The notes under the pieces are model-generated. The model saw only the letters and a list, made by a program, of their open reading frames with translations, made no database searches and had not been told where the DNA came from. DNA of 64,000 nucleotides from Flavisolibacter longurius (GTDB lineage: Bacteria > Bacteroidota > Bacteroidia > Chitinophagales > Chitinophagaceae). Shown piece after piece: positions 24,231 to 46,104 of this stretch; positions within the stretch are counted from its first letter, which is position 1; each line of letters begins with the position of its first letter. Where the stretch lies: positions 1 to 64,000 of the forward strand of contig JACJGO010000026.1 of NCBI GenBank assembly GCA_014163555.1. Reading direction: 5' to 3'. A program made the position numbers and the translations under genes.

Positions 24231-25352
24231 ATGAAAAAGAAAACCATTATTACCGATAACACCATTGAAGCACTTAGCCAGAACATTCAAGCAGCAAATG
24301 CCTATTTTCTGAACAAAGCGCAAAAGCAAGTGAATACTGCCCTCACGCTTAGAAATTGGCTGATTGGCTACTACATTAGGGAATACGAGCAATCCGGGAA
24401 AGACAGGGCCGATTATGGCACCAGGCTTTACAAGGAGATTGCCCAACGAATGGCGAAGAAGGGCTTGAAGTCCATCCGGGAACGGCATCTCTATCTCTGT
24501 AAAGACCTTTATGTCGCCTATCCTAAGATTTTGCGGACACTGTCCGCAAAATCTTATCTCGTTGAATTTGAGCATCCTGAAATTCTGCGGATAGCGTCCG
24601 CAGAATCAGCCAACATTGGCCTTAGCGATGCTGAAATGAATGTTTTGCTGTCCAACCTTAGCTTTTCCCATTTCATAGAACTTCTGAAAGCAGATAGCCA
24701 CGAAAAACGCCGGTTCTATGAAAAGCAAGCCCTAAAAAACAATTGGGGTGTACGGGACTTGAAACGGGCTGTAGAAAGTTTGCTATACGAAAGAACAGGT
24801 TTGAGTAGCGATAAAAATTCCGTAGCAGCAAGTCACCAAGCCCAAAAAGAGTTGACGCCGGAAAGCCTGTTTCATAATACTTACCTGCTTGAGTTTTTGG
24901 GTTTGGAAGGGAAAGACGTGTACACAGAGTCGGACTTGGAAGAGCGGATTATCACGCAGCTACAAAACTTTCTTTTGGAACTTGGCCGGGGCTTTTGTTT
25001 TGAGGCCAGGCAGAAGCGAATAACCTTTGGAAACACGCATTACCGCATTGACCTTGTTTTCTACCATCGCATCCTAAAATGCCACGTATTGCTGGATTTG
25101 AAAATTGGTGAATTTGACCATGCCGATGCAGGGCAAATGAACATGTACCTAAACTACTTTAAAGAAAACGAAAGCGAGACGACTGATAATCCACCTGTGG
25201 GGATTATCCTGTGTTCCGGCAAAAATGAGGCTTTGGTGAAATACGCTACGATGGGGTTGCCGCAACAAGTGTTTGTGTCAAAATATTTAATCAATTTACC
25301 CGACGAAAAAGATTTAAAAAATATCATTGAAGATGAAAAACTGAAGACATGA
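24231..25352 (+). CDS. YhcG-like PDDEXK nuclease (DUF1016) protein
   Basis: A 373-residue protein with the DUF1016 N-terminal helical domain (ALTLRNWLIGYYIREYEQSG, YGTRLYKEIAQRM) and a C-terminal PD-(D/E)xK nuclease-like domain (FCFEARQKRITFGNTHYRIDLVFYHR, then LLDLKIGEFDHADAGQMNMYL). The D...D-x-K core residues appear present. Between them (residues about 98-125) lie two short repeats, ILRTLSAKS and ILRIASAES, each encoded by a DNA palindrome. Proteins of this family are frequent on mobile elements. It follows the integrase by 19 nt. Confidence 0.85.
   Translation: MKKKTIITDNTIEALSQNIQAANAYFLNKAQKQVNTALTLRNWLIGYYIREYEQSGKDRADYGTRLYKEIAQRMAKKGLKSIRERHLYLCKDLYVAYPKILRTLSAKSYLVEFEHPEILRIASAESANIGLSDAEMNVLLSNLSFSHFIELLKADSHEKRRFYEKQALKNNWGVRDLKRAVESLLYERTGLSSDKNSVAASHQAQKELTPESLFHNTYLLEFLGLEGKDVYTESDLEERIITQLQNFLLELGRGFCFEARQKRITFGNTHYRIDLVFYHRILKCHVLLDLKIGEFDHADAGQMNMYLNYFKENESETTDNPPVGIILCSGKNEALVKYATMGLPQQVFVSKYLINLPDEKDLKNIIEDEKLKT
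24524..24556. repeat. 33-nt perfect palindrome inside the DUF1016 gene
   Basis: Arms of 16 nt (24524-24539 and 24541-24556) are perfectly complementary around a single C. The palindrome lies in the reading frame and encodes KILRTLSAKS. Its core GCGGACA recurs in the smaller palindrome 25 nt downstream. Confidence 0.9.
24582..24606. repeat. Second palindrome inside the DUF1016 gene
   Basis: Arms of 10 nt (24582-24591 and 24597-24606, ATTCTGCGGA and its complement) lie around a 5-nt loop. They encode ILRIASAES, a degenerate copy of the upstream palindrome's peptide. Confidence 0.85.
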
Positions 25353-27809: not shown

Positions 27810-29771
27810 TCATTCCTGCTTTTCTGCTTTCAGGCGTTCTACCTCCTCACCAATCATCTTTTTAATGTCCATTTTTATCTGGTAAAAATTTTCCTGTACC
27901 TGCTGTTGTGCGACGGCAGAAACAGTGGGGATTTCTTTGTAACTGTTCACTTCCTCGTTCAATTTTTTGTGGTCATTAACTATTTCCGAATGGAACATCT
28001 TTAACTTGATTTTCTCGTCCGGGTTGTCAGCCACCAATCCCACAAATTCGCCGGATGAAAGTGCTGCAATTTTGGAAGCTGGTATGGCGCTGTCCAATTG
28101 CTTTGAATGGCTAATGGAAGTATCTGTCCGGTTGATGGAAACGCTTTGCCGGTCCTGCATGATTTTGCCAAACCGTTCCGAAAGCAGTTTTGACGTTTCG
28201 CCCATCACCTGACCGCTGATTATGTTGCCGGTAATATTTACAATTACGTCTGCCTGTTCACGGCCATAATCCTTTTTCAATTGGCTGAAGTCTTGCATCG
28301 CCAATGTAGTGGCTACTTTGTTGCTCCTTGCGGTGGCAATCAGGCTATCAATATTGTTGAAGTAGATAGTCGGAAATTCGTCAAAAATAAGGCTGCATTT
28401 CTGCATCCCTTTCCTGTTTACTTGCCGTACTAACCGGGACACATAAAGCGACAAAACTGCGCCGTAAATCTGTTGCTTTTCAGGGTTGTTTCCCATGCAC
28501 ACAATTTTCGGCTCATTCGGGTTGTTTATGTCCAACGTAAAGTCGTTGCCGGAAAGAACCCAATAAAGCTGCGGCGAAGCCAGACGTGCCATCCCAATCT
28601 TAGCCGATGCTACTTGCCCTTCCAACTGCTCCATAGCGTCGTTCTGGTAAGCGGTTATAAACGGGTTCACCAAGACTTCTATTTCCGGCTGTGTGTTAAG
28701 CACGGGAAACAATTCATCATACTCCGCTTGCATCAGTTCAATGACGTGCGGTAACGTGCAGTACTTCCCATCCTCGTACTTACGCAAAAACCAAATAACA
28801 GCCGTCACAAAATTGATGGGTGACTCCACAAAGAAATCGCCCTGCTTGTTTATCCATTCCCGGTTCAAACCCAACAGAATGGTTCTTGCGCTTTCCGTGG
28901 CGTCGGTAATGTCGTTCATGCTGGACGGATTGAGGGGATTGCAACGGTGTGATACGGTAAGCTTGTCAAAATTGATTACATAGAAAGATGGCTTTTCCGT
29001 ATAGCGATGCCTGTTTCGCTGCAACCAATTGTACACAATTTTGGAAAGGTCATCGTACTTAAAATCGTACACGAACATGGCGAAGCCTTTTTCAATATGC
29101 TGTTTAATAACGTGCTGGATAACGAACCAGCTTTTGCCGGCGCCGGGGGAGCCAATCACCAGCAGGCCACGAAACGGATTGATGACATTAATCCAGCTAT
29201 TCTTTATCCGGCCCTTTAGATTGTACCGGGCAGGGAGGTTAATGGAAAACTCATTTGCGATTAACCGTTCTTCCTGCGGAAAGGTTTCGTTCAGCGAATT
29301 GAATACGTCGTTGCCTATGTTGTAACGAACAAGCCGGCTCAATAAATTTCCACCTGCCAAAAGAAGAAGAAAACCTACTACGGTTATTGCCATGTAAATG
29401 AAAGCAAGCGTTTGCCCAGAATAGGATAATTGCAACGCCGCCTGACTACCAAAATACAGGCCCGCACCAATGAGCAGATAGAGTGTAATAATCCTGGCGT
29501 TTATTTTTTCGTCTTTTTTACCCTGTGCACCCAAGAGGGAAATGACTAATAGACCGAGGGCTATTAGTTTAGATGTTGCAAGCGATTGAAACAATCCGGT
29601 TTGAGAAACGTTTTTCAAAAGCCTGTCGGTAATTTCAGACCGTAAACTCCATTGCTCAAAAGCGGCATAACAGAAATAGTAGAAATGAAGCAGCAACACA
29701 AAAATGCTGGCAAACCTTGTCAGGTCTATTATTTTCCGTAGCCCCTGTTCGTTTTCCCCTGTAACAGACAT
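27810..29771 (-). CDS. VirD4/TraG-type conjugation coupling protein
   Basis: A 653-residue type IV coupling protein. Four N-terminal membrane segments lie in residues 18-150. Walker A is GSPGAGKSWFV (about residue 220) and Walker B is SLIFDEFPTIYFNN (about 465). A downstream TraM-recognition region contains ATARSNKVATTLAMQDFSQL. It would link the relaxosome to a secretion channel at the inner membrane. The gene follows the relaxase gene by 15 nt on the same strand, in the usual MobA-MobB-MobC/TraG order of Bacteroidetes mobile elements. Confidence 0.9.
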   Translation of the reverse strand: MSVTGENEQGLRKIIDLTRFASIFVLLLHFYYFCYAAFEQWSLRSEITDRLLKNVSQTGLFQSLATSKLIALGLLVISLLGAQGKKDEKINARIITLYLLIGAGLYFGSQAALQLSYSGQTLAFIYMAITVVGFLLLLAGGNLLSRLVRYNIGNDVFNSLNETFPQEERLIANEFSINLPARYNLKGRIKNSWINVINPFRGLLVIGSPGAGKSWFVIQHVIKQHIEKGFAMFVYDFKYDDLSKIVYNWLQRNRHRYTEKPSFYVINFDKLTVSHRCNPLNPSSMNDITDATESARTILLGLNREWINKQGDFFVESPINFVTAVIWFLRKYEDGKYCTLPHVIELMQAEYDELFPVLNTQPEIEVLVNPFITAYQNDAMEQLEGQVASAKIGMARLASPQLYWVLSGNDFTLDINNPNEPKIVCMGNNPEKQQIYGAVLSLYVSRLVRQVNRKGMQKCSLIFDEFPTIYFNNIDSLIATARSNKVATTLAMQDFSQLKKDYGREQADVIVNITGNIISGQVMGETSKLLSERFGKIMQDRQSVSINRTDTSISHSKQLDSAIPASKIAALSSGEFVGLVADNPDEKIKLKMFHSEIVNDHKKLNEEVNSYKEIPTVSAVAQQQVQENFYQIKMDIKKMIGEEVERLKAEKQE

Positions 29772-29786
29772 AACATTGCTTTTTGG

Positions 29787-31064
29787 TTAAAGATTGTTGT
29801 CCTTTCGCTTTTTCTTTTTTCGCTTTTTGTTCAGCAGGTTAGCCGGTATATTGTCGTGCTGTTCTTTGGTGGAGAGCAGTGCGTCCAATAGCGAGGTCGC
29901 TTGTGGTTGTGAGTGCCCCTTCTTTGGAAGATGCTCTTGCGTCTTGGTACGCTCCTTAAAGGCATCTACTGAACCGCCTCTCTTTTCATCTTCCTTGTCA
30001 ACTTTGTTTTCTCCCGTTTGTCCTCCCAAACGAGCTTGGATAGCGGCAGCACTATATCCTTTCCCCAAATCGCTGCCGTTAAAGACACATTCGCTTTCGT
30101 TATCAACGTAGGTTAGTCCGTACACCAAGCCGCCAGAATTCTGTCGCAGCACCGTGTAAATATTTTGGGCCTCAAGATTGGTCACAAACGCCTTCATGGT
30201 TACAGCTTTCTTGAGACCTTCATCAATAGCTTCTTTCAGTCGTTGCTTATAGGGTTCTTTTGCAGACTGGTTAAGGAGAAATTTGGTTTCCAGATTTTTT
30301 AGAGTCGGTTGACAATGGATGGTGCTTGCTTTGATAGGTACGCCAATCTGGCTACCCTTGGCGTCCAAAATCCTGTAAGTAAGGCCGCCATTCTTGTAAA
30401 CCCTGCCGCCTTCTTTTCCACGGTCGGCAATAACATTAAACTGACGCAGAGCGGCATTGTATTCCGGCATTGAGGTAAACCGGTAGCCATTGAAAACGGC
30501 AGTGACAACATTGGTGATGGCTCTTTTCGTTTCCTGTTTTCCGTACAAGGCTTTTTCAATTTTCACAGAGGCTGTCGCATGGTTGTTTTGCTTTTGCCGC
30601 TGTGCTTTTACCAAACCAAAAATTTGCTCCAATTCTTTCCTCGCTTTCTCTGATTGATTGCGGCCAAGGTTGTGGGTATTAATCCGGCTACCATTGTGGC
30701 GAATGGTATTGCTGACTATGTGAATGTGCGGATGGCCGGCGTCCTCGTGTTTGTAAACCAGGAAAGGCTGTTCGCCAAAACCTACCTTTTCCATGTAGGC
30801 ATTTGCCAGTTCCGTCAACCTGCCGTCCGATAGCTTTTCGGATGGGTCCAAATTGAGGGAGATGTGAATGGTCTTTGTTGCTGCCCTTTCGTTTAACTCA
30901 TTCAACCGCCTGAAGCCATCCAGCTTTTGGTGGAAATTCATCTCGTGTGCTTCTCGTAGATAATTGGATGCCTGCAGGCACACCGCTTTGCCCTGTTGTA
31001 CTTTAGCCTCGTTATAATTCAAGGCCGCTTCTATCATTTTCGGGAAAGTTATTTTTGCGACCAT
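29787..31064 (-). CDS. Relaxase / mobilization nuclease (MobB-like)
   Basis: A 425-residue MOBP-type relaxase. The metal-binding histidine triad is in GHPHIHIVSNT. The candidate nicking Tyr lies near the N-terminus in ALNYNEAK, and ASNYLREAHEMN is nearby. The C-terminal third is charged and low-complexity, ending in a poly-lysine tail (KKRKKKKRKDN). I chose ATG 31064 (MVAKITFPKMIEAALNY), which overlaps the MobA-like gene by 16 nt. The longer frame to 31151 lies inside that gene. It nicks the transfer origin, probably at the inverted repeats around 31518-31577. Confidence 0.9.
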   Translation of the reverse strand: MVAKITFPKMIEAALNYNEAKVQQGKAVCLQASNYLREAHEMNFHQKLDGFRRLNELNERAATKTIHISLNLDPSEKLSDGRLTELANAYMEKVGFGEQPFLVYKHEDAGHPHIHIVSNTIRHNGSRINTHNLGRNQSEKARKELEQIFGLVKAQRQKQNNHATASVKIEKALYGKQETKRAITNVVTAVFNGYRFTSMPEYNAALRQFNVIADRGKEGGRVYKNGGLTYRILDAKGSQIGVPIKASTIHCQPTLKNLETKFLLNQSAKEPYKQRLKEAIDEGLKKAVTMKAFVTNLEAQNIYTVLRQNSGGLVYGLTYVDNESECVFNGSDLGKGYSAAAIQARLGGQTGENKVDKEDEKRGGSVDAFKERTKTQEHLPKKGHSQPQATSLLDALLSTKEQHDNIPANLLNKKRKKKKRKDNNL

Positions 31065-31444
31065 TGTTCGTAAACTTGGTTCATTCGTAAACGGATTTCT
31101 TCGACTTTGCCAACCAGCGCTTTTTGCAAGCCATCGTATTGCGTCAGCCAACTTCTAAACTCAGGTATCTTGTCAAGAATATGCAGCTTGTGTACGGCCT
31201 GATTAAAATTGTTGCCAATACCGTTCAATTCTTTTTTCAACCCCAACATCTCTTTCAGAAAGTCATCAGCCGATTTATTCCGGTAAGCGACAACAACTGG
31301 TTGTTGAAGCGCCACTTTTCGCAAATAGCTGCTAACGTTTTTTTCGGTGGTTTGTCGCTGATACCTGACGACCGTAGCCAATTCATCATCGTTCATCCTG
31401 GTTTTTACAAAGTGCTTGCGCACTTCCTTCGCCTCTTTCTTCAT
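31049..31444 (-). CDS. MobA/MobC-like relaxosome accessory protein
   Basis: A 131-residue basic protein with a ribbon-helix-helix-like N-terminus (VKTRMNDDELATVVRYQRQT, VSSYLRKVAL) and the MobC-family helix KEMLGLKKELNGIGNNFNQA. It probably binds the origin of transfer beside the relaxase. It directly follows (in transcription) the inverted-repeat region I read as oriT. Confidence 0.85.
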   Translation of the reverse strand: MKKEAKEVRKHFVKTRMNDDELATVVRYQRQTTEKNVSSYLRKVALQQPVVVAYRNKSADDFLKEMLGLKKELNGIGNNFNQAVHKLHILDKIPEFRSWLTQYDGLQKALVGKVEEIRLRMNQVYEQWSQK

Positions 31445-36831: not shown

Positions 36832-37215
36832 ATGATTATCGGAATTGGTTCTGACATTGTTGAACATGACGTTACGGAGAAGCTTCAGTGGAGTTCTGAT
36901 CTGACGTTGCTGAAACGAATTTTCTCTTCGCAAGAATTGGAACTATACCAAGCCGAACCCTCCATAAAATTTCTTTCGGCAAGGTTTGCGGTTAAAGAAG
37001 CGGTTCTAAAATGTTTGGGTGTTGGCATGGAACAAGGACTTGCTTTGACGGAAATACAAACCCTCAACGATAAAAACGGCAAGCCCCAAGTCGAACTTAC
37101 CGGAGAAGTGAAAAAGCTTGCGGATGCAAAGAGCATTGAAGTCTGGCACGTAAGCATCACTCACACGAAAAACCTATCCCTTGCTTTTATAATCGCCGAA
37201 GGGAGCAAAGCTTAG
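36832..37215 (+). CDS. acpS: Holo-[acyl-carrier-protein] synthase (4'-phosphopantetheinyl transferase)
   Basis: A 127-residue AcpS-type transferase that moves 4'-phosphopantetheine from CoA to a serine of a carrier protein. The Mg-binding residues are Asp8 (IGIGSDIVE) and Glu56 (FAVKEAVLKCLG). The C-terminal WHVSITHTKNLSLAFIIAE is typical. As it sits on a mobile element, it is unlikely to be the housekeeping copy. It runs convergently into the MazG-like gene, overlapping its 3' end by 42 nt. The far end of that operon encodes an acyl-carrier-like protein, a plausible substrate. Confidence 0.9.
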   Translation: MIIGIGSDIVEHDVTEKLQWSSDLTLLKRIFSSQELELYQAEPSIKFLSARFAVKEAVLKCLGVGMEQGLALTEIQTLNDKNGKPQVELTGEVKKLADAKSIEVWHVSITHTKNLSLAFIIAEGSKA

Positions 37216-38070
37216 TTTACGGTTGTCCATATCCGCTGTTATATAACCTTGCTTGCACTGCTGCAACTGCCGCCAAACATCATAGCCTTGCAAAATCGCT
37301 TCTTCCCATTGTTTCTCCTTTCTATCCTTGACTTCTAAGTGATCGGTCATCTTTTTTATTGTTTTCAACAAATCATCGTCCACATGTTTTATCCCTTGCA
37401 ACCAATTGTGGTCTTTTGCATAGCTGTACACCAAAGCCGCTATCCCTTCTTCAATAACGTTTGCCCTTCCTCCGTCTTCCACTTCATCAACCGCCAGACT
37501 GCTTTTTCGTTTGCGGCTTAGGTGCTTTCGCAACACTGGCGACCAGCCCAATACTGCGAGGTAGGAAATGTGAAATACGTCGTGGTAGCGGTAGCCATCA
37601 TCGGTGTAGGAATTATCGGTCAGCGGGTCGCCAACCTGCATGTCGTCCGCATAGATGACGACCGTGGGATAGCTGCCAGCATTTTGTTCCCTGATGCAAA
37701 AAGTGATTTTCCGTGGCAGTTGTTGGGTGGAAGGATATTGTTCATCATAACGTTTGGTAGTTATTGCACCTTTCGGTTCTTCACTCCACCTGTGATAAGT
37801 CTTCTTCAAATTTTCTTCGGCAATTTGCTCCAGCGAAATCCCATACTTGGTAGCGGTGCTTGTCAAGTACCAAAGGATGTCCCCAAGTTCTTCCACAACC
37901 GCTCTGTTGAACGTTGTAAAGGCATCTCCATCCCGAAGATGCTTTTTGTAAATTGTCAATAGTTCGCCAGCTTCTCCTGAGAGGCCGAGAAGGCTTATTA
38001 AAAGCCCTTCCCGTGTATTGGGATTTAAATCGGTCTTGGCTGCTTTTAGTTGGTATTCGTTAAGCTCCAT
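37174..38070 (-). CDS. MazG-like nucleoside triphosphate pyrophosphohydrolase with C-terminal extension
   Basis: A 298-residue protein. Residues 1-110 are an all-alpha NTP pyrophosphatase (MazG-like) domain. SLLGLSGEAGELLTIYKKHL supplies ExxE and VVEELGDILWYLTSTATKYG supplies ExxD. The remaining 180 residues (YRYHDVFHISYLAVLGWSP, VIEEGIAALVYSYA) have a second, possibly MazG-related helical domain that I cannot name. MazG-like enzymes remove unwanted dNTPs, and in thymine-hypermodifying phages they clear dTTP or dUTP. The ATG at 38070 overlaps the upstream gene by 25 nt. The longer frame lies entirely within that gene. Confidence 0.8.
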   Translation of the reverse strand: MELNEYQLKAAKTDLNPNTREGLLISLLGLSGEAGELLTIYKKHLRDGDAFTTFNRAVVEELGDILWYLTSTATKYGISLEQIAEENLKKTYHRWSEEPKGAITTKRYDEQYPSTQQLPRKITFCIREQNAGSYPTVVIYADDMQVGDPLTDNSYTDDGYRYHDVFHISYLAVLGWSPVLRKHLSRKRKSSLAVDEVEDGGRANVIEEGIAALVYSYAKDHNWLQGIKHVDDDLLKTIKKMTDHLEVKDRKEKQWEEAILQGYDVWRQLQQCKQGYITADMDNRKLSFAPFGDYKSKG

Positions 38071-39152
38071 AAATCTTGAACGTTTTTGTGGTTGGCCGGC
38101 TTGATGTTTTGATTTATGCCCCACTTGGGTGGAAACCAAAAATCAATCGGCTTTGCGGTCGCTTTGAAGGTTTGCTTTATTCTTGTTCGTTCGCTGTTTC
38201 CTTTAATGTCCGGATGTTTGACCCGTGCGTATTTATCTACTTCGCAAAAGAGGTTTTGGCAGTCTATAAGCTGTAACGGGCGGCCCCAAAGGTTTTTAAA
38301 GGACAAGCCTAATCGCTCAAATTCAATTTCCTGCCTATCGGTCATCAGTTTGATGACCTCCACATTACTAAGACCCCCTGTATCTGAAAAGCATTTGCTG
38401 ATGCCGCCCTTGGCGCCGGGCCCTGGCACCACAAAATCGGCTTCGGAGAAATTCAAAATCTCCGAATAGTTGATGTCAATGACGAACTGATAGGCTAAAA
38501 AATCGCCCAAACCTGGCAACTGTTTTATCATCTCAAATGCCTGTTGCATCGTCTTTGCCTCTGTTAATCGCTCGTGGGTATTTTTCTTGATGACAAGCTC
38601 AATCAGTTTTAGATGATTGGAGTGTTTTCTGGGAAACCCAAAGGCGGACCTGCCGGACGGCATTATGTAAGCCGCCGAATAAATGCGTTTGCTGCTGCTC
38701 ATGGCTTGTCTTAGAACGGCATCGTATTTTTCAAAGTCATACTCTTCGAAAGTCAAAGCCCCCAATTTCGCCGTCAGCAATTCCCACGTCTCAATCTTGT
38801 TGAATAGTTTGAACAAAAGAATTCGGAAGAGCGTCTCTTTAGGCGAAGTCGGCAAGTCTTTATTGTAAATAACGTTTCTGATTAGATATTGACTTACCCG
38901 GTCAGACGCCCGATACACGTTTGTAAATTTGTATTTATTGATAATTGGGTCGGGCGACCAAGGTGGCTGCATTCCGGCGAAACGGTTAAAAAATACTTCT
39001 TGTCTGGCGGCGGCAAATCTCCAATAGCTGTCAAAAACTGTAGTAGGCTTTGCGGGTGAAAGATGTGTGTGAACAGTCAATGCAGGTTTATTATTCAGGC
39101 GTTGGCCTTCGCTTCTGGCAGTTCTATCATTTAAAGGTTGTGGCATAATCAT
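38046..39152 (-). CDS. 5-hmdU DNA kinase helical-domain / thymine pyrophosphorylase-like protein
   Basis: A 368-residue protein. I recognise the all-helical domain known from 5-hydroxymethyl-dUMP DNA kinases and alpha-glutamyl/putrescinyl-thymine pyrophosphorylases. Key segments are FDSYWRFAAARQEVFFNR, PWSPDPIINKYKFTNVYRA, SDRVSQYLIRNVIY and NKIETWELL. A helix-hairpin-helix-like LPGLGDFLAYQFVIDINYSE is followed by ADFVVPGPGAKGGISKCF, as in DNA-glycosylase-type folds. There is no P-loop, so it is not itself a kinase. In phages, relatives act on 5-hydroxymethyluracil in DNA. It lies 9 nt from the thymidylate-synthase-like gene. Family assignment is from memory of motif patterns. Confidence 0.75.
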   Translation of the reverse strand: MIMPQPLNDRTARSEGQRLNNKPALTVHTHLSPAKPTTVFDSYWRFAAARQEVFFNRFAGMQPPWSPDPIINKYKFTNVYRASDRVSQYLIRNVIYNKDLPTSPKETLFRILLFKLFNKIETWELLTAKLGALTFEEYDFEKYDAVLRQAMSSSKRIYSAAYIMPSGRSAFGFPRKHSNHLKLIELVIKKNTHERLTEAKTMQQAFEMIKQLPGLGDFLAYQFVIDINYSEILNFSEADFVVPGPGAKGGISKCFSDTGGLSNVEVIKLMTDRQEIEFERLGLSFKNLWGRPLQLIDCQNLFCEVDKYARVKHPDIKGNSERTRIKQTFKATAKPIDFWFPPKWGINQNIKPANHKNVQDLWSLTNTN

Positions 39153-39161
39153 TCGGCAAAC

Positions 39162-39911
39162 TTAGCCTTCTTGTAGACTGGGAGGAGCAATGGTGTTTGA
39201 CAGTATATTTTTTGCTTCCGTTTTTGTGATTTCAAGTTGCTCAATGCTTACAAGGCAGTTTAGGCGTTCAAATGTCAAACCGGTTTCCTTGGCCACAAAT
39301 TTTCCAAGGTTGATTAGCCCTAACCAATTGCCGTAAGCTTTCCGGTAAAGGAGTTGAATGGCGTAGAAGCTATTGAGCACAAGGCCACCATCGGCGCTTA
39401 CAAAGAAGGTAACGTGTTGCAAGCACGGAAAGCCTTGGTACGGCCCGTTTATGTGGTCTTCCCGTGGGTCAAATATTGAAGCCTGCAGCTTGGAACGCCT
39501 GACGCTTTGGTTGTCCCGGAGCGAGGAAACAATTCCTTCCAGTTGATTAATCCTTTTGTCGTAGGCGACGAGCCGTTCAAAGTAGGTCCCTCTTCGGTTT
39601 CTTGTATCAATCTTGTGAAGGCGTGGCAAGTTTGCGATGTACTCTCTGTAAAGGGCATGCCGATCTTGTTTGCAAAGTTCGTAGAGCGACTGCGGGAAAA
39701 TGGTTTCCGAAACCGTGTCCACCGACGTTTCTTCATTGCGTTGCAAATCGGCATCTAAGGCTTGCCTGATTTCCTGCACTTCATCAAAACCTGTAAGGGT
39801 TAGCGTCAGCGGTGTAATCTCTCGGCTTGGTTCAGCAATGGCACGTTCGAGAACTCTGCGCCAGGCATGCGACAAGTTGGTTTCTTCTACCAAAAAAGGT
39901 TTTGTATTCAT
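39162..39911 (-). CDS. Thymidylate synthase-like protein
   Basis: A 249-residue protein whose C-terminal half matches the thymidylate synthase / dNMP hydroxymethylase fold. RRSKLQASIFDPREDH is followed by GFPCLQHVTFFVSADGGLVL, where the Cys after Pro fits the catalytic cysteine. Next comes the helix YGNWLGLINLGKFVAKETGL, with an Asn at the position that reads the pyrimidine. The R-S-x-D substrate loop of true synthases is not conserved (it reads FYAIQLLYRK). I infer a relative that modifies a pyrimidine nucleotide rather than housekeeping ThyA. It overlaps the ImmA/IrrE gene by 4 nt (ATGA). Confidence 0.65.
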   Translation of the reverse strand: MNTKPFLVEETNLSHAWRRVLERAIAEPSREITPLTLTLTGFDEVQEIRQALDADLQRNEETSVDTVSETIFPQSLYELCKQDRHALYREYIANLPRLHKIDTRNRRGTYFERLVAYDKRINQLEGIVSSLRDNQSVRRSKLQASIFDPREDHINGPYQGFPCLQHVTFFVSADGGLVLNSFYAIQLLYRKAYGNWLGLINLGKFVAKETGLTFERLNCLVSIEQLEITKTEAKNILSNTIAPPSLQEG

Positions 39912-40786
39912 AGTTCGTCAATTGCGTTTTCTAAATGGCGGTTTTCGGCAAGCCCGGCGTATTGGAAATTTTGTATTCGGACGAAGACACCCATACTTCC
40001 ATCGGGTGCGGCGGCACGAACGATGCCCGGCCTAACGGCAACGTATCCGGTTCCAAAAACCGTTGCCTGCTGTTTACGAAGATGGTCTCCCTCTACCTCC
40101 ACATCGGCCGGCAAAACGATGTAGTTGGAAACCTCCAAATCAACAACGGGTGATTTTGAATGCTTATCAATAATCTTGAAGTGTGCGTTCTCCGTGCCGG
40201 CTGGAAACAGGCTGGCGAACATTTTTTTGGGCGTCGCTTTCAAAAGGACCATTGCCGTGGTCTCAGAAATAATTTGGTTGGCCCGGCAATGATTCACAAG
40301 GGTTTGGTAGCCTACGCCAAACGAAGAGCAAACCGTATAGAAGTCAAGCGGAGAAGCTGTTTTGGGCGCCCACTTCCGTTTAGTGAAGGCCGCCTCAATA
40401 CCCGCCACCGGCATCAGCAGCGCTCCGGCAAAAGCATCTACTAACAATTCGTCCGGGTCGAACGAAGTTGTTTGACCCGTTCCGTCAAACAGGGCATCTA
40501 CCTTTAGGCCGTGACCGAATACGTGATGGCCGAATTCATGGGCACAGGTGTAACTTCTTCGAGGCAAAGGGCGTTGGTTCGACAGCAGAATGGTTGGATA
40601 GGTACCGTCCTCCTGCTTGGTGTAGAAGCCTTCCATGCTGATGTCAACAAACCTTACGGTAACGCCCAACTTTGCACACACGTCGTAAATATTCACAGGC
40701 TGAAACATATTTAGACCCAACTGCATTCTAACCTCGTCAGCCTTTAGCAAAGCCTTTTTAAACAATGGTGTCATTGTGCTTGTCAT
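39908..40786 (-). CDS. ImmA/IrrE family zinc metallopeptidase
   Basis: A 292-residue protein with the HExxH active site His83-Glu84...His87 (CAHEFGHHVFGHG) and the downstream ELLVDAFAGALLMP that supplies the third ligand. Such proteases cleave XRE-type repressors to switch on mobile or stress genes. Here the XRE gene overlaps it by 4 nt upstream and the thymidylate-synthase-like gene overlaps it by 4 nt downstream, so it is the likely control pair of this operon. Confidence 0.9.
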   Translation of the reverse strand: MTSTMTPLFKKALLKADEVRMQLGLNMFQPVNIYDVCAKLGVTVRFVDISMEGFYTKQEDGTYPTILLSNQRPLPRRSYTCAHEFGHHVFGHGLKVDALFDGTGQTTSFDPDELLVDAFAGALLMPVAGIEAAFTKRKWAPKTASPLDFYTVCSSFGVGYQTLVNHCRANQIISETTAMVLLKATPKKMFASLFPAGTENAHFKIIDKHSKSPVVDLEVSNYIVLPADVEVEGDHLRKQQATVFGTGYVAVRPGIVRAAAPDGSMGVFVRIQNFQYAGLAENRHLENAIDEL

Positions 40787-41124
40787 TTCGGTAAAATTTT
40801 CAGAAGGTAAAACAGCTTCTCCCTGTCCTCTTTGCTCATCTTGCCCAACTCTCTTGCCGCCAGTTTAAGCTGTTCGGACATGTGCGTGTCGTTCTCTTCT
40901 TCACGAAGCAGCAGCCACGACGTATCAACCTTGTACAAATCGGCAAACTGGACGAGTTCTTCGGCGCTCACCTTTCGTTTGCCGGCTTCTATCTCCGAAA
41001 TGGCCGGACGTTGCAAGCCCAACTTATCTGCGGCTTGTGCTTGCGAAAGACCTGATAGCATCCTGGCTTCTTTCAGACGGGCAGCGATTTTTTCCCGTTC
41101 CGGACTTACGTTGTTAGTTTCCAT
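40783..41124 (-). CDS. XRE family helix-turn-helix regulator
   Basis: A 113-residue protein with a Cro/C1-type HTH (ARLKEARMLSGLSQAQAADK then LQRPAISEIEAGKRKVSAEE) and a helical C-terminus. It probably represses its own operon and is the expected target of the neighbouring ImmA/IrrE protease. It overlaps the upstream carrier-like gene by 11 nt. Confidence 0.9.
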   Translation of the reverse strand: METNNVSPEREKIAARLKEARMLSGLSQAQAADKLGLQRPAISEIEAGKRKVSAEELVQFADLYKVDTSWLLLREEENDTHMSEQLKLAARELGKMSKEDREKLFYLLKILPK

Positions 41125-41419
41125 GTGTTGTCTCTTGAGGTTGTTTGTGTTTGGCTTTTTTGTGCAGCGCTTGGGCCGCCTCTCTTATAGTGAGTTGCTT
41201 ATTTAAACTTTTGTCATAAAAAGGATAGCAGTTGTTGGGTATGTCCACATCGAGGGCTGCGGCGATGCGGCCGATGGCCGTAACAAGTACCTGGCTTTTG
41301 AAAAAGGCGCTGGGAAGACAGTCGCAGTCAATCGAAACCGGTGTTTCTAATTGCTCCTTAATTTCTTCCAGGACCGCCTTAATTTTTTGTTCGATTACGT
41401 CCTCCTCAATCGCCAACAT
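41114..41419 (-). CDS. Acyl-carrier-protein-like small protein
   Basis: A 101-residue protein with the helix pattern of acyl carrier proteins. Helix I is EEDVIEQKIKAVLEEIKEQL, helix II begins FFKSQVLVTAIGRIAAALDV, DIPNNCYPFYDK follows, and the last helix is LTIREAAQALHKK. The Ser in FKSQVLV sits where ACPs have the phosphopantetheine serine (D-S-L/M), though the preceding Asp is Lys. It is the first gene of the minus-strand operon and the only candidate substrate seen for the AcpS encoded at the other end. The assignment is from pattern only. Confidence 0.5.
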   Translation of the reverse strand: MLAIEEDVIEQKIKAVLEEIKEQLETPVSIDCDCLPSAFFKSQVLVTAIGRIAAALDVDIPNNCYPFYDKSLNKQLTIREAAQALHKKAKHKQPQETTHGN

Positions 41420-41748
41420 GATGTATTATTTTCGTACAAATTTAGTAGGAAAATCTTACCAAATAAAATTTTGTTCAATTAATGGTATTGTTGAAGTACC
41501 TCGGATGTCAGTCAAAATGTTGCAATGCGTGTGACTGGAAAGGGCAACGACTAAATCCCAAAATCTCTCGGCATCACTGCGATGTATTCGCTGGCGGTTG
41601 TGAGGATTGAGCATCAGCCATTGCGCAAGGGATAGAAGCGAAAATCCTTTATGCCGCAGGCAAAAAGATTGGAGCGGATAGCCCGGCCCGGAGGGTGCGC
41701 CCCGTCACTTTTAGCGATTCAAGTTTGTGTTGGCTGAAGAAAGGCGTG
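41420..41748. ncRNA. Intergenic region with a hairpin-rich element, possibly noncoding RNA
   Basis: About 330 nt without a gene. The segment about 41618-41720 forms several short hairpins (GGATAGAAGCGAAAATCC, TGCCGCAGGCA, then GGATAGCCCGG) with a repeated AAGCG/GAGCG pattern. I have an impression of similar segments between genes in other Bacteroidetes but cannot verify it. It separates the two cargo loci and may be a transcript end or repeat element. Confidence 0.3.
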
Positions 41749-42540
41749 TCATTTCTCCCAAATCACACTAATCGTATAATTGAAAGATTTAGCAAACAGG
41801 CAGTACTCAAAAAACCGGGTGTCAGGCTCGTCTTCGCTGCGCATTTCAAACCAGTCTGATTTCCAAATATCTTGTTTGGACTCGTCACCAACGTATGCCT
41901 TCTTACCTAAAAACATTTCATAGGCAACAGTGCCAGTTGGTGGCGCAGCGTTCATCTTTAAGTGGGAGAAGTGATAAAAGTCATCTGACCTTTTAAACCA
42001 CTTTACTTGGTTATCCTTACAGTACACAACAAATACAGGATGGTTGCCCCGCTTTACAAACTTCAAAATAGTTGCGGTCTTACTTACGCCAAAGCGATTA
42101 GCCAGATGTTCAATTACTTTTGGCTCAAACTTCTTTCGTTCGCATTCTTTGTAAAACAGTTCGGAAGGCATTAAAAATTCGGCAGCAAATTCGTTTGCTT
42201 CCATTTCCTGCGGACCGGCTTTGTACCAGTTCATCAGGTCTTCTTCCGTATCGGAAAAGATAGGGCGCAGGCTGCGGTGCATTTCGTAATGGCCTAACTC
42301 GTGTGCAGCAGCAAATCGTTTCTTTGTTTCAAATTGAATTAACGAGTTGATGGTAATGATGGAGCGATTGTCTACCGATACGATTTCACCTTCTTTACCG
42401 TCAAGGGGCGTTTCTTCGTAAAACGCCTTCCTGCCTAAAATAATCTTCGGTAATGGAAATTCGGTGGGGTCATTCAGTCCGCATTCATCCAATACTCGTT
42501 TTGCGCAAAGTTCTGCCTGCGAGTACTTGAAGGTCATCAT
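41749..42540 (-). CDS. Second ImmA/IrrE family metallopeptidase
   Basis: A 263-residue zinc peptidase with His80-Glu81...His84 (AAAHELGHYEMH) and the downstream NEFAAEFLMPSELFYKE segment supplying the third ligand. The C-terminal half is a beta-rich domain. It overlaps the upstream small gene by 4 nt and is the last gene of a three-gene operon divergent from the ubiquitin-like genes. It may cleave a regulator, possibly the sigma-like protein or its partner. Confidence 0.9.
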   Translation of the reverse strand: MMTFKYSQAELCAKRVLDECGLNDPTEFPLPKIILGRKAFYEETPLDGKEGEIVSVDNRSIITINSLIQFETKKRFAAAHELGHYEMHRSLRPIFSDTEEDLMNWYKAGPQEMEANEFAAEFLMPSELFYKECERKKFEPKVIEHLANRFGVSKTATILKFVKRGNHPVFVVYCKDNQVKWFKRSDDFYHFSHLKMNAAPPTGTVAYEMFLGKKAYVGDESKQDIWKSDWFEMRSEDEPDTRFFEYCLFAKSFNYTISVIWEK

Positions 42541-42950
42541 GCGTTTTTATCCGGTGCTTTCATAAACTTCAGGGTAAAGTGTTTTATCAGGATGTTCCTA
42601 ATATCTTCCTGGGTAAGGCTCTCAACATTCCGGAAACTCATGGACAGTTCTTCTTTTTGCACCAAATCCGGTAGCGAAAAATTGATGTTGCCTAACAAAT
42701 CGTCCACCCATTGGGTGGCTTGCGCTTTTACCGCTTCGGCCATTTGCATTTCCTTTTCGGTTCTGTTGGCGTTTGCCATCATCTGCATCTGCTTAATGCG
42801 CTTCAATCCATCCGCAAGCAATTTTTCCGTGTTCACTCCTTCGGATGCCAAGAATTCTTTTGCGGCTTCCTTGCTATTGCTGTCGTGTTGTGCCGCTTCA
42901 AAAAACAAATTCACAAAATCGCACTTTGGCTGATTTTTCTTTTTACTCAT
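42537..42950 (-). CDS. Hypothetical small protein between sigma-like and ImmA/IrrE genes
   Basis: A 137-residue helical protein, not recognised. It has a central QMQMMANANRTEKEMQMAEA helix and an acidic/hydrophobic C-terminus. It overlaps both neighbours by 4 nt, so its amount is tied to theirs. It could be an anti-sigma-like partner or protease substrate, which is inference from position only. Confidence 0.5.
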   Translation of the reverse strand: MSKKKNQPKCDFVNLFFEAAQHDSNSKEAAKEFLASEGVNTEKLLADGLKRIKQMQMMANANRTEKEMQMAEAVKAQATQWVDDLLGNINFSLPDLVQKEELSMSFRNVESLTQEDIRNILIKHFTLKFMKAPDKNA

Positions 42951-43558
42951 ACAGACGGTATGTTTTTAGTGAAGTGTAGCGTAGCCCGGTTTAAAACCGT
43001 GGTCAGCCGCCGCATTCCATTGTCAAAGGCACTTGCTTGCATCTCAAATTCCTTTATCACCTCGCGGCGCTTCAGGCCGTAAGTATAAAGGCCCAGAAAA
43101 ATATTCTCCGCATCGGCATCGCCCTGAATTTCCTTTTCGATGTAGTCTTTCACAGTTTCGTAGTCAAGGTCATCGGGGAACAGGGCTTCAATGTGCGGGA
43201 GAATACGGTCTAAGTAGGGAGCATGTTCATCGTCGTCATCATCGCAATGCGCAAAGACGTCTTGTGTCAAGCGGTTTTCTTTTTTGCGCAAATCATTGCC
43301 AACAAGGGAGCGAACGAGATTGTACTGCAGGTAATCCAGCAGTTCACCCTTGGATGCGTCAAACTTTTCAGGTTCTTCCAAATATTTTCCAATTGCCGCA
43401 AAAGCATAGTCCTCGGCTTGTTTACCCATTAAAAAGCTGTCGGTTTTTCCACCCCTGAACCACGGTTTTCCCTTAGCCAGGGAACGGGTGAATGCGACCA
43501 GCCTCAAAATAATCTCGTCCCAATCTATTGAAGCCGGAACACTGGTCTGTGTACTCAT
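42947..43558 (-). CDS. Sigma-70-like (ECF-type) protein
   Basis: A 203-residue protein with a sigma region-2-like part (GGKTDSFLMGKQAEDYAFAA, then PEKFDASKGELLDYLQYNLV) and a region-4-like helix pair (YGLKRREVIKEFEMQASAFD). A linker rich in Asp (CDDDDDEHAP) lies between. It probably directs transcription of this locus, perhaps including the divergent ubiquitin-like operon 110 nt away. Assignment as a sigma factor rests on layout and a few motifs. Confidence 0.6.
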   Translation of the reverse strand: MSTQTSVPASIDWDEIILRLVAFTRSLAKGKPWFRGGKTDSFLMGKQAEDYAFAAIGKYLEEPEKFDASKGELLDYLQYNLVRSLVGNDLRKKENRLTQDVFAHCDDDDDEHAPYLDRILPHIEALFPDDLDYETVKDYIEKEIQGDADAENIFLGLYTYGLKRREVIKEFEMQASAFDNGMRRLTTVLNRATLHFTKNIPSV

Positions 43559-43667
43559 TTGTGTACGAGTTCATGTTAGTAAATGTTGGAAAACTAATTT
43601 TTTTTACGGCCACCTGCAAAAAAAATCGCCGTGCCAACAGTACACCTTAACAACAAAATTTTTTACA

Positions 43668-44216
43668 ATGGAAAATCAAACGAAAAACCCAGGAGTGGAA
43701 GAGCCTCAAGACGACATCATTGACATCGAAGTATTTGCCAAACAAGGCAAAAAGCCGCCGGTCGGCAAAAAATACAAAGTGCGGGTGGGGCACCAGCACT
43801 TCATTTTTGAACAGCACATCATAACGGGTAAGGACATTCTGGTGAAGGCTGGCATTACCCCTTTGGAGTGCTACTGGCTGTATCAAAAGTTGAAGGACTG
43901 CGATTTTGAAAAAATTGACCTGACCGAAAAGGTTGATTTGACCCGGCAAGGTGTTGAGCACTTTGTGGTAAAGCCTACGGAGGTGTTTCACTACTCCGTG
44001 GACGGCGAGCCTGAAACCACCGACGAAAAAGAGCTGACGCCAAACCAGATTTTAGAAGCGGCTGGTCTTGCACCGGTAAAGGACTATTACCTGGTTCGTA
44101 TCAATGCCGATGGTAGTCAGACGCCATTTAAAGACAGTCCCGACACTCCGTTGAAAATGGTTTGCCCGGCCGTAAAGTTCGTGTCAGCGTTTAGAGGCGA
44201 AACCAATGTTTCTTAA
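43668..44216 (+). CDS. Two-domain ubiquitin-like protein (multiubiquitin)
   Basis: A 182-residue protein with two beta-grasp domains in tandem, residues about 33-100 (KYKVRVGHQHFIFEQHIITG) and 104-177 (TEVFHYSVDGEPETTDEKEL). The repeats share the G(K/N)xIL-AG(I/L)-P-(x)-YxL pattern of bacterial multi-ubiquitin proteins. The end is SAFRGETNVS, so a mature tail could be exposed only after removing five residues past Arg-Gly, a possible job for the JAB domain of the E1 gene. First gene of a three-gene operon with E2-like and JAB-E1 genes. I chose the ATG at 43668. The frame is open further upstream but lies in the divergent promoter region. Confidence 0.85.
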   Translation: MENQTKNPGVEEPQDDIIDIEVFAKQGKKPPVGKKYKVRVGHQHFIFEQHIITGKDILVKAGITPLECYWLYQKLKDCDFEKIDLTEKVDLTRQGVEHFVVKPTEVFHYSVDGEPETTDEKELTPNQILEAAGLAPVKDYYLVRINADGSQTPFKDSPDTPLKMVCPAVKFVSAFRGETNVS

Positions 44217-44227
44217 AAAATCAGCGT

Positions 44228-44596
44228 ATGGCCAAATTAGACTTTATCAATCAATTGCAGGCTCTTGGCTACACCGTGCAGGAGCCTGCTCCTGATTTCG
44301 TATCCTTTGAATACGAAATACCGGTAGGCAAGTTTGCTGGTCAAAAGGTATGGATGGCGTTACAAGTTGTTGACAGCTTTCCGATGAATGCACCACCCGG
44401 CCCGCATTTTAAGCCGCACCTCTTGCCCATATCAGGCGGTGGAGGTGTCCATCCCTACGGTGCAATTCATAATAACAGCCCCTTAGGAACCGACTGGCAG
44501 TATTGGAGCCGTCCATTCAGCGAATGGAACCGGAGCGACCGGTCCGTGAAAACTTACTTAGCTCACATCCGAAACCTTTTTGTAACTGTCGTATGA
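44228..44596 (+). CDS. Prokaryotic E2-like (UBC fold, family E) protein without cysteine
   Basis: A 122-residue protein resembling the bacterial E2-like family found beside multiubiquitin genes. SFEYEIPVGKFAGQKVWMAL forms the central strands, NAPPGPHFKPHLLP matches the PxxPP-type loop, and GGGGVHPYGAIHNN occupies the active-site region. No Cys occurs anywhere, so a normal E2 thioester is impossible. His residues take the expected position. It lies 11 nt after the multiubiquitin gene and overlaps the E1 start by 4 nt (ATGA). Confidence 0.75.
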   Translation: MAKLDFINQLQALGYTVQEPAPDFVSFEYEIPVGKFAGQKVWMALQVVDSFPMNAPPGPHFKPHLLPISGGGGVHPYGAIHNNSPLGTDWQYWSRPFSEWNRSDRSVKTYLAHIRNLFVTVV

Positions 44597-46104
44597 AAAC
44601 GTATAGCGCTATAATTAACGGCGAATTGCATCAGCAACTTTTCACTCACCTCATTCGTGAAGATGAACAGGAAGATTTGTGTTTTGCAACCTATGTTCCT
44701 TCCACTGGTGCCAACCGGACGACCGGTATTCTCACGTCGCTTATAATGCCGGAGGATGGCGATAGAAACGTTCACGGCAACGTTGGGTTTATGCCGCAAT
44801 ACTTGGAGCGGGTTTTAAAAATTGCCGGTGAAAGAAAGGAAGGCATTGCCTTTCTGCACTCGCACCCTTCCAGTGGCTGGCAAGGAATGAGTGATGACGA
44901 TATTGTTGCCGAAGCAAGGCTTTCGCCTTCTGTGATGGCCGTAACAGGCCTGCCGTTGTTAGGATTAACCTTGGGAACAGATGGCGCCTGGAGCGGAAGG
45001 TTCTGGTTGAAAGATGGAACCCAAAAAAGAAAATACAACCGAACTTGGTGCGATACGGTTCGTGTGGTAGATAAGCAGCTTAGCATCACCTTCCACGATG
45101 AACTGTTGCCGCCTTCCTTTGATGCGGGAAAACAACTTCGTACGATTTCGGCTTGGGGCAGTAAAACACAGGAAGGCCTCTCCCGGTTGAGAGTTGGCAT
45201 CGTTGGCCTGGGAAGCGTTGGAAGTATCATTGCGGAAGTATTGGCCCGCACCGGAATCGCCAACTTTACGCTGATTGATTTTGATGCGGTTGAAGAAAAG
45301 AACTTGGACCGGCTAACCAATGTTTTCAAAGAAGACATTCGACGGGCAAAGGTTTTAGCGGTAGCCGATGGTATTCGCCGAAGCGCCACCGCACCGAAAG
45401 TGGAAATCAATTGCTGCGAGTACAGCATTTGCGAAAAAGAAGGTTTTGAAACAGCACTTAATTGCGATGTGTTATTTAGCTGCGTGGACCGGCCGTGGCC
45501 CCGGCAGGTACTCAACTTCATTGCCTATGCTCATTTAATACCGGTGATTGATGGCGGCATTCTGGTACGTACTAACAAACGCAATACGGCCATCATTGGC
45601 GCCGATTGGAAGGCACAGACGGTTGGATACAAGCGGCCCTGCCTTGAATGTTTGGGACAATACAAAGCGGAAAATGCCTCACTGGAGATCAGTGGAAAAC
45701 TGGACGACCCGGATTACATAAAAGGGTTAGATAAGTCCAAGTTTCTGGATGCACACGAAAATGTCTTCGTGTTCAGCTCTCACCTGGCTTCCATGGAAGT
45801 GCTGCAGTTACTGTCTCTCTTTATCGCTCCGTCAGGTATAGCAGATGTTGGACAGCAACTCTATCATTTTGTACTGGGTAGTTTGGACGTTGACAGAGAA
45901 AAAGCCTGCCACAAAAATTGTTTTTTCCCGACAGTCGTTGGTAAGGGCGATTTTGCAGGACTAACAGTTTATGGTCCGCATGCTGTTGCCGAGAGTGCAA
46001 GAAACCTGCGAGCAAATCAAATGTTAACGCCCAACTCTCACGATATACTTCAAGACAAAAAGCAGGGTTTGATTAGCAGGATAATAAAAAAGATTTTTGG
46101 CTAA
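44593..46104 (+). CDS. JAB isopeptidase-E1 (ThiF) fusion protein
   Basis: A 503-residue fusion. Residues 1-170 are a JAB/JAMM metalloprotease (His89-x-His91...Ser100-x-x-Asp103 in HSHPSSGWQGMSDDD). Residues about 185-480 are a ThiF/E1 adenylation domain (GLGSVG 205-210, then TLIDFDAVEEKNLDRLTNVF, with the Arg/Asp of the ATP site). Cys350-x-x-Cys353 (RPCLECLGQY) and a later pair (KACHKNC) probably bind zinc. The E1 should adenylate the Ub-like tail, and the JAB part should trim or remove it. The ATG at 44593 overlaps the E2-like stop. The longer frame upstream is inside the E2-like gene. Confidence 0.88.
   Translation: MKTYSAIINGELHQQLFTHLIREDEQEDLCFATYVPSTGANRTTGILTSLIMPEDGDRNVHGNVGFMPQYLERVLKIAGERKEGIAFLHSHPSSGWQGMSDDDIVAEARLSPSVMAVTGLPLLGLTLGTDGAWSGRFWLKDGTQKRKYNRTWCDTVRVVDKQLSITFHDELLPPSFDAGKQLRTISAWGSKTQEGLSRLRVGIVGLGSVGSIIAEVLARTGIANFTLIDFDAVEEKNLDRLTNVFKEDIRRAKVLAVADGIRRSATAPKVEINCCEYSICEKEGFETALNCDVLFSCVDRPWPRQVLNFIAYAHLIPVIDGGILVRTNKRNTAIIGADWKAQTVGYKRPCLECLGQYKAENASLEISGKLDDPDYIKGLDKSKFLDAHENVFVFSSHLASMEVLQLLSLFIAPSGIADVGQQLYHFVLGSLDVDREKACHKNCFFPTVVGKGDFAGLTVYGPHAVAESARNLRANQMLTPNSHDILQDKKQGLISRIIKKIFG

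Follow-up and report, generated by a model that had tools for sequence, protein, structure and literature searches.

A candidate carrier protein, a thymidylate-synthase-like enzyme and a repressor-peptidase pair in a recurrent gene set on mobile DNA, probably an undescribed antiviral system

Swinging-arm carrier proteins are known from the assembly of lipids, polyketides and peptides. What would such a protein do in an operon of nucleotide-modifying enzyme types, under the control of a peptidase and on mobile DNA? The question is raised by seven genes at positions 36832-41419 of a 64,000-nucleotide stretch of Flavisolibacter longurius (assembly GCA_014163555.1, contig JACJGO010000026.1, positions 1 to 64,000), referred to here as the window. 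They encode a carrier-protein-like protein, an XRE repressor-like protein, an ImmA/IrrE metallopeptidase, a thymidylate-synthase-like (TS-like) protein, an HMUDK_hel protein, a MazG protein and AcpS, a holo-acyl carrier protein (ACP) synthase. The gene set recurs on mobile DNA and is probably an antiviral system that has not been described. More specifically, we read it at a probability of about one half as a mobile-element defence operon, controlled by the XRE/ImmA pair, that modifies deoxyuridine nucleotides with a dedicated holo-carrier.

Layout and recurrence of the gene set

In the window, six of the seven genes of the locus lie on the minus strand and the seventh, convergent with them, on the plus strand, all in uninterrupted frames (Table 1). 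The carrier and XRE genes overlap by 11 nt, and the XRE/ImmA and ImmA/TS-like junctions by 4 nt each; a 9-nt gap separates the TS-like gene from the HMUDK_hel gene, which in turn overlaps the MazG gene by 25 nt. The AcpS gene runs convergently into the MazG gene, with 42 nt of overlap at the MazG stop end. An alternative TTG start for MazG at 38139 also lies in the open frame, and the MazG protein contains the stretches EAGE and ELGD, which we take to be the expected metal site. The coordinates, overlaps, gaps and convergent AcpS gene given for these seven genes by a first-pass annotation, made from the sequence without database searches, were all borne out by checks of the open reading frames (ORFs) and their junctions, and its AcpS, ImmA, XRE, MazG-like and helical-domain identities are all firm in Pfam.

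Table 1. Genes of the locus and other features of the window, with the matches that identify them
Feature	Position	Strand	Evidence
AcpS holo-ACP synthase, 127 aa	36832..37215	+	PF01648 5e-16; TIGR00516 90.4 bits (cut-off 59.8)
MazG + MazG_C protein, 298 aa from ATG at 38070	37174..38070	-	PF18722 2e-76; PF03819 2.2e-6
HMUDK_hel protein, 368 aa, kin of phage hypermodification proteins	38046..39152	-	PF18723 7e-111; Foldseek
Thymidylate-synthase-superfamily protein, 249 aa, Cys163 and Asn195 kept	39162..39911	-	TIGR03283, hhalign
ImmA/IrrE metallopeptidase, 292 aa, HEFGH (HExxH at residue 83)	39908..40786	-	PF06114 5.7e-11; PADLOC capP 4.2e-11
XRE repressor-like protein, 113 aa	40783..41124	-	Pfam HTH_3 8e-15; PADLOC capH 1.8e-15
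Carrier-protein-like protein, 101 aa, first gene, Ser42 = predicted phosphopantetheine site	41114..41419	-	relatives' profiles and alignment
Tyrosine integrase of mobile element	22844-24211	+	Pfam
Coupling protein of mobile element	27810-29771	-	Pfam
Relaxase of mobile element	29787-31151	-	Pfam
E2-like gene, candidate defence neighbour, right of the set	44228-44596	+	PADLOC E1-E2 2.4e-16 (pair)
ThiF/E1-like gene, candidate defence neighbour, right of the set	44503-46104	+	PADLOC E1-E2 2.4e-16 (pair)

The first-pass annotation had made its reading depend on the recurrence of the gene set in other genomes. Loci were gathered from genome searches, one GTDB contig scan, viral contigs and plasmids, giving 32 with a TS-like gene (the window, L003, L011-L014, L024, L032-L047, L049, L072-L076, L079, L083 and L084); the weak hit in G506, L030 and most of L050-L064 are contexts outside this survey. 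The set does recur: the order carrier, XRE, ImmA, (C1 peptidase), TS-like is kept in 31 of the 32 loci, which rules out a chance clustering of the genes, and the set is spread over Bacteroidota, Cyanobacteriota, Pseudomonadota and Actinomycetota as well as a haloarchaeon. Among 22 aligned relatives, identity of the TS-like protein to that of the window falls as low as 23%. TS-like loci were located on plasmids and viral-collection contigs; 21 plasmid records were matched, with H14-H17 (sphingomonad records whose alignment figures equal those of the fetched H13) and one unlisted record outside the count. Of the 395 genomes in the phylum sample, 6 have the TS-like gene and 7 have HMUDK_hel, with 5 genomes shared (Fisher p 1.6e-9).

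A full-text literature search found no paper on this gene set, but related enzyme types figure in PMC13092281 (2026). Domains that this paper reports as newly validated for defence in E. coli include thymidylate synthase and 5-hydroxymethyluracil kinase, and it also predicts anti-phage systems of aGPT-Pplase, MazG and MazG-C type. Its DefensePredictor systems, with TS, dNMP kinase, 5-hydroxymethyl-deoxyuridine (5-hmdU) kinase and NMAD domains, have enzyme types in common with the window operon; unlike that operon, the main text of the paper, on which (rather than on its tables) the comparison is based, contains no 'acyl carrier', 'ACP' or 'ImmA'.

The TS-like protein, the carrier and their companions

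The TS-like protein has no Pfam match. It does match the methanogen thymidylate synthase model TIGR03283 of NCBIfam (1.9e-15; 56.9 bits, below the cut-off of 174.55) and a PHROG thymidylate synthase (4.9e-6), and hhalign of a 23-member TS-like alignment against six ThyA-like relatives gave a probability of 95.7 with the cysteines aligned, a 7-member alignment reaching 51.9 against the ThyA-like set. The best PDB sequence matches were weak (0.017 for cytidine monophosphate (CMP) 5-hydroxymethylase, from 0.17 for thymidylate synthases), and 3 of the 22 matches listed are to an unrelated receptor kinase. Cys163, Arg113 and Asn195 are present in all 30 sequences compared, L045 and L079, which are annotated in two pieces, being excluded. 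Cys163 aligns with the catalytic cysteine both of the ThyA-like set and of the CMP 5-hydroxymethylase MilA, a member of the same superfamily as thymidylate synthase, whereas at the position of Asn195 the CMP enzyme has Asp. In this superfamily, Asn reads uracil-type bases and Asp cytosine-type ones. A second, ThyA-like gene occurs in 7 of the 32 loci (Pfam PF00303 was run on the L012 copy only), which weakens the idea of the TS-like protein as the only maker of 5-hmdU monophosphate (5-hmdUMP); the TS-like protein is therefore probably not simply a 5-hmdUMP maker.

Identification of the window carrier depends on the profiles and alignment of its relatives because Pfam, PHROG and NCBIfam scans gave no significant family match of its own. 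Ser42, the predicted counterpart of the serine that takes phosphopantetheine at the start of helix II in carrier proteins, aligns in all 31 relatives compared; Asp precedes it in 23 of the 31, and the window protein has K-S-Q around the serine instead of D-S-L. Pfam PP-binding, scanned in 14 carriers including that of the window, scored above the cut-off in 3 (L013, L035 and L040), weakly in 4 and not at all in 7, the window carrier among them. Record annotators named the protein acyl carrier protein in L037, L040, L043 and L076, and in L046, L049 and L083, where no query matched, it was assigned by position, length and alignment only. Searched against PDB, a 24-member carrier profile matched ACPs down to 4.9e-9; its top match is an artefact, a designed repeat protein in which no single stretch passes. 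A 19-member profile built against circularity, of whose members 7 had been scanned with Pfam and none had a PP-binding match, gave 47 PDB matches at an expectation value (E) of 1 or less, nearly all of them carriers and the best at 5.1e-4. For the four-member clade of the window carrier itself, the best three matches are ACPs (0.036 to 0.065). Phosphopantetheinylation at Ser42 is strongly implied.

The two identities that the first-pass annotation had offered most tentatively can thus be stated with qualification. Sequence profiles place the TS-like protein in the thymidylate synthase superfamily, the fold match being by sequence only; the ACP-like assignment holds by profiles and the aligned serine, while the fold could not be demonstrated from a low-confidence structure model, for which the Foldseek matches include carriers, none of them significant.

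A phosphopantetheinyl transferase gene adjoins the set in 11 of the 32 loci (11 of the 31 that bear a carrier). Ten of these encode AcpS (the window, L003, L014, L024, L038, L039, L042, L073, L079 and L075, the last an annotated 100-residue ORF at 40 bits), and the haloarchaeal plasmid L083 encodes an Sfp-type enzyme (PF01648 5.6e-6; 4PPT_N 4e-5, below cut-off). On the TS tree of 30 rows, again without L045 and L079, transferases stand in 10 rows, a pattern that takes 4 changes to explain, compared with 8.6 in shuffles. Exactly one transferase match was found in 22 of 29 relatives, the window's genome counted, and among the places listed for 17 other genomes of the genus, only G733 has an AcpS-length open frame, which belongs to the same operon (locus L024). 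Elsewhere in its genome the host has both an Sfp-like transferase and a canonical ACP, and AcpS is found beside other copies of the set as well; for these reasons we reject the simple reading of AcpS as a displaced housekeeping gene. Carrier and transferase look like a dedicated pair, found with two transferase types, and to our knowledge haloarchaea usually lack ACP-based fatty-acid synthesis. A transferase is linked in 6 of the 8 loci that have lost the Asp before the serine against 5 of the 23 that keep it (p 0.012, confounded by clade), a hint that loss of this residue goes with a dedicated transferase.

The companions of the TS-like gene were recognised from annotation, from Pfam or from their likeness to single queries; they include MazG_C in 25 of the 32 loci, HMUDK_hel in 19 and a uracil-DNA glycosylase (UDG) in 11. 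HMUDK_hel and UDG are never found together (0 of 32, p 6e-7, with related loci not independent and some contigs ending early). A dCTP-deaminase-like gene is present in 10 loci, and three loci, L011, L012 and L083, encode a thymidylate-kinase-like protein (the Pfam family Thymidylate_kin matches in L011 and L083, and L012 has a relative of the L011 protein). By eye, a P-loop part is fused in front of HMUDK_hel in L013 and L033. A radical-SAM-like protein, also recognised by eye, follows the fused gene in L033 (10494-11543, plus strand), and a relative of it adjoins HMUDK_hel in L059; on an Erythrobacter plasmid, HMUDK_hel lies between genes annotated dnaQ and dnaE (L081, 5992-7005, plus strand).

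The AlphaFold model of the window HMUDK_hel protein is good (pLDDT 86.7), and in a Foldseek search of a viral structure library it matched the 5-hmdU DNA kinase of phage SP10 (4.8e-16), a PhiW-14 protein and two aGPT-Pplase1 proteins, with weaker matches to three amino acid:DNA transferase models (0.01 to 0.03, probability 1.00). Together with the Pfam match, this upholds the link to phage hypermodification types that the first-pass annotation had drawn for the helical protein. Against PDB there were weak matches to helix-hairpin-helix (HhH) DNA glycosylases, the best at 0.39; no PDB structure matched at E 0.001 or better, and sequence searches found no solved relative. A glycosylase-like or transferase role on the base would fit the swapping of HMUDK_hel with UDG.

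Such phage pathways raise the possibility that the operon hypermodifies the DNA of its own element to shield it from restriction, as phages ViI, M6 and PhiW-14 do with theirs. Thymidine hypermodification in those phages and SP10 has in common with the window locus a TS-superfamily enzyme and an HMUDK_hel/aGPT-Pplase1-type protein with a shared HMUDK_hel fold; the phage pathway proceeds through 5-hmdU, a DNA kinase and transferases, as PMC6449724 outlines it. Of 50,697 phage records, 493 contain HMUDK_hel relatives, Salmonella Ackermannviridae and phages of Pseudomonas among them, and the plasmid and viral-collection loci would suit this explanation as well. The TS-like protein, however, was found in none of the 50,697 records, the fetched flanks hold no recurrent DNA polymerase gene, and Pfam detects no P-loop 5-hmdU kinase among the seven window genes, which lie outside any phage genome and add a carrier protein, AcpS, XRE and ImmA to the phage enzymes. 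The repressor-peptidase pair moreover suggests induced rather than constant use, and the UDG of 11 loci might attack a uracil-type base. Protection of the element's own DNA is thus unlikely in our judgement.

HMUDK_hel also occurs in a second context without the carrier and TS-like genes (L015, L025-L028, L059, L077 and L085), alongside TIR, ThsB-like and in some cases SLOG genes; most of these loci share a conserved protein, presumably NMAD. HMUDK_hel and MazG_C stand together with TIR, SLOG and ThsB-like genes in L015, L027 and L028, with a ThsB-like gene in L025 and L026, and in L077 with a TIR gene and a phospholipase of CBASS type. Such company would suit an operon whose product is a modified nucleotide that serves as second messenger for an effector. 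Across the 32 TS-like loci, however, we saw no constant effector gene, nor TIR or SLOG genes together with the ACP-TS set, and we consider a messenger improbable.

The control module and a proposed mode of action

The best PADLOC matches of the window XRE and ImmA proteins are the models for CapH and CapP of CBASS, which are likewise an XRE protein and an ImmA-type (HExxH) peptidase encoded together. Unlike CapH/CapP, the window pair sits in an operon of nucleotide-modifying type, and other copies have an ImmA with an I42 tail beside a C1 peptidase, the gene for which lies between ImmA and TS-like in 13 of the 32 loci. We scanned ten ImmA proteins, 8 of them from these 13 loci. The chagasin-type I42 domain was present in 7 of the 8 at E 2e-4 or better (L042, L044-L047, L049 and L083, with L046 below the Pfam cut-off), L084 reaching only 0.03; it was found in neither of the 2 scanned proteins without a C1 peptidase, and the window ImmA has none. 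The tail and the papain-like C1 peptidase look like a built-in protease-inhibitor switch, a possible inhibitor-protease pair.

The control genes and the neighbours of the set point to defence, a question that the first-pass annotation had left open. Besides the E1-E2 pair of the window, these neighbours, all known or candidate defence genes, are LmuB-like genes (L038 and L039), PDC-S26 (L024), Shedu (L073), caspase (L045 and L074) and SIR2 (L039). From the sequences we infer action on deoxyuridine nucleotides, a role in defence and a direct part for the carrier arm in the TS-like reaction. By analogy with the repressor-peptidase mechanism of CapH/CapP, XRE would keep the operon repressed until infection or DNA damage, when the linked ImmA would lift the repression. 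The phosphopantetheine arm would be placed on Ser42 of the carrier by AcpS or, in loci that lack a linked transferase, by one of the host. Judging from their families, MazG and MazG_C would shift the pool toward dUMP-type substrates, as might dCTP-deaminase-like, ThyA-like or thymidylate-kinase-like proteins in other copies. The TS-like enzyme would attack C6 of the uracil nucleotide through Cys163 and install a C5 substituent coming from, or captured by, the carrier arm; HMUDK_hel, or UDG in other copies, would act on the altered base, probably in DNA. Phage DNA could end up damaged or blocked, or the product could be a nucleotide that is toxic or acts as a signal.

The first-pass annotation had suggested a carrier loaded with an acyl or aminoacyl group, which is then passed on to a pyrimidine. 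The part of this that is supported is the company of the TS-superfamily enzyme, helical protein, MazG, carrier and transferase, together and recurrent on mobile elements; the acyl or aminoacyl loading and the transfer to a pyrimidine are conjecture.

Several observations weigh against a defence operon that works on deoxyuridine nucleotides with its own carrier. Within the 16 kb fetched, locus L072 retains MazG_C, TS-like and UDG, while the carrier, XRE and ImmA genes are all missing. The flanks fetched for 19 plasmid copies name no gene for an adenylating enzyme, an acyltransferase or a thioesterase, the PLSDB gene tables being incomplete; L072 and the absence of a loading enzyme from the fetched flanks are the strongest points against the idea that the carrier arm takes part directly in the TS-like reaction. 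In the window carrier the serine is preceded by Lys instead of Asp, the AlphaFold model of this protein is poor (pLDDT 57), and hhalign of its 4-member clade to the canonical ACP of the host reaches 2.6%, compared with 76% for the 24-member profile. No transferase is linked in 20 of the 31 carrier loci, unannotated loci having been searched for the AcpS type only, and neither HMUDK_hel nor UDG lies in the stretch fetched for L032 and L034. In the class sample, again of 395 genomes, 7 have HMUDK_hel and 2 have TS-like (one of these hits being the weak G506), and the one genome with both is that of the window; the two diverge because HMUDK_hel there is mostly in the TIR-type context. The defence neighbours, finally, are counts without a background rate.

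A rival reading makes the carrier part of the sensor, with holo- or acyl-ACP binding XRE or ImmA and reporting metabolic state while TS-like, MazG and HMUDK_hel or UDG act without it. The carrier gene lies directly before XRE and ImmA in 31 of 31 carrier loci; L072 lacks carrier, XRE and ImmA together and yet retains the other genes; and the distribution of the I42 tail makes the module look like a built switch. L072 is, however, a single case and a long branch on the TS tree. On plasmids, moreover, the ImmA family (E up to 1e-6) occurs almost only with TS-like: the set is carried by 17 of 17 records matched by the L044 query and by 9 of 10 matched by the window query, the tenth being a partial Bacillus hit. 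There, therefore, ImmA is not a free-standing swappable sensor. We regard the carrier as sensor as possible, if doubtful. Beside its TS-like gene, L072 encodes a UDG fused to a SocA/Panacea antitoxin domain (8296-9381, plus strand).

Under the preferred reading of a carrier that takes part in the modification of deoxyuridine nucleotides, a more specific chemistry can be imagined. In thymidylate synthase, free thiols trap the C5-methylene intermediate. The phosphopantetheine thiol of the carrier might likewise capture a C5-methylene uracil intermediate made by the TS-like enzyme, so that the carrier carries the nucleotide, which HMUDK_hel might then use, or UDG watch, to cap or mark phage DNA; we hold this as a long shot. 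If true, it would be carrier-tethered nucleotide chemistry in immunity, common to bacteria and archaea. The operon also bears comparison with Bacillus phage SP-15, whose DNA contains dihydroxypentyluracil, a C5-alkylated uracil, and whose gene 129, an acyl carrier protein reductase, is next in number to gene 130, a predicted hmdU synthase (PMC5977210). Its synthases are of Thy1/ThyX type, unlike the TS-like protein, and no carrier protein gene is named in the passages compared.

A carrier dedicated to an operon of nucleotide-modifying type under protease control, and accompanied by a transferase of its own even in the haloarchaeal copy, suggests a chemistry for altering uracil nucleotides that has no match in the literature searched. 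The operon gives testable roles to the HMUDK_hel, MazG_C and TS families, which recent work has placed in immunity, and base-modification tools might come from it.

The mobile element and other genes of the window

The integrase, coupling protein and relaxase genes of a mobile element lie at lower coordinates than the set, and the E2-like and ThiF/E1-like genes lie to its right (Table 1). A Flavo-1 RNA (Rfam RF01705, 51 bits) at 41612-41692 on the plus strand is located upstream of the operon; because five relatives (L003, L011, L012, L014 and L024) gave no match to it that reached the gathering score, we do not count it as part of the operon.

Several further genes of the window were recorded. 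Between the Flavo-1 RNA and the E2-like gene, a second ImmA-type peptidase is found beside two proteins without significant family matches (41749-42540 and 42537-43558, both minus strand). A gene at 43653-44216 (plus strand), before the E2-like gene, encodes by eye a ubiquitin-like multidomain protein, with no PADLOC match. A YhcG-type nuclease gene adjoins the integrase gene at 24231-25352 (plus strand; PADLOC PDC-S02 1.9e-122). Toward the far end of the window, at 59734-63930 on the minus strand, one open frame combines an AcrB-type pump with an outer-membrane efflux (OEP) domain.

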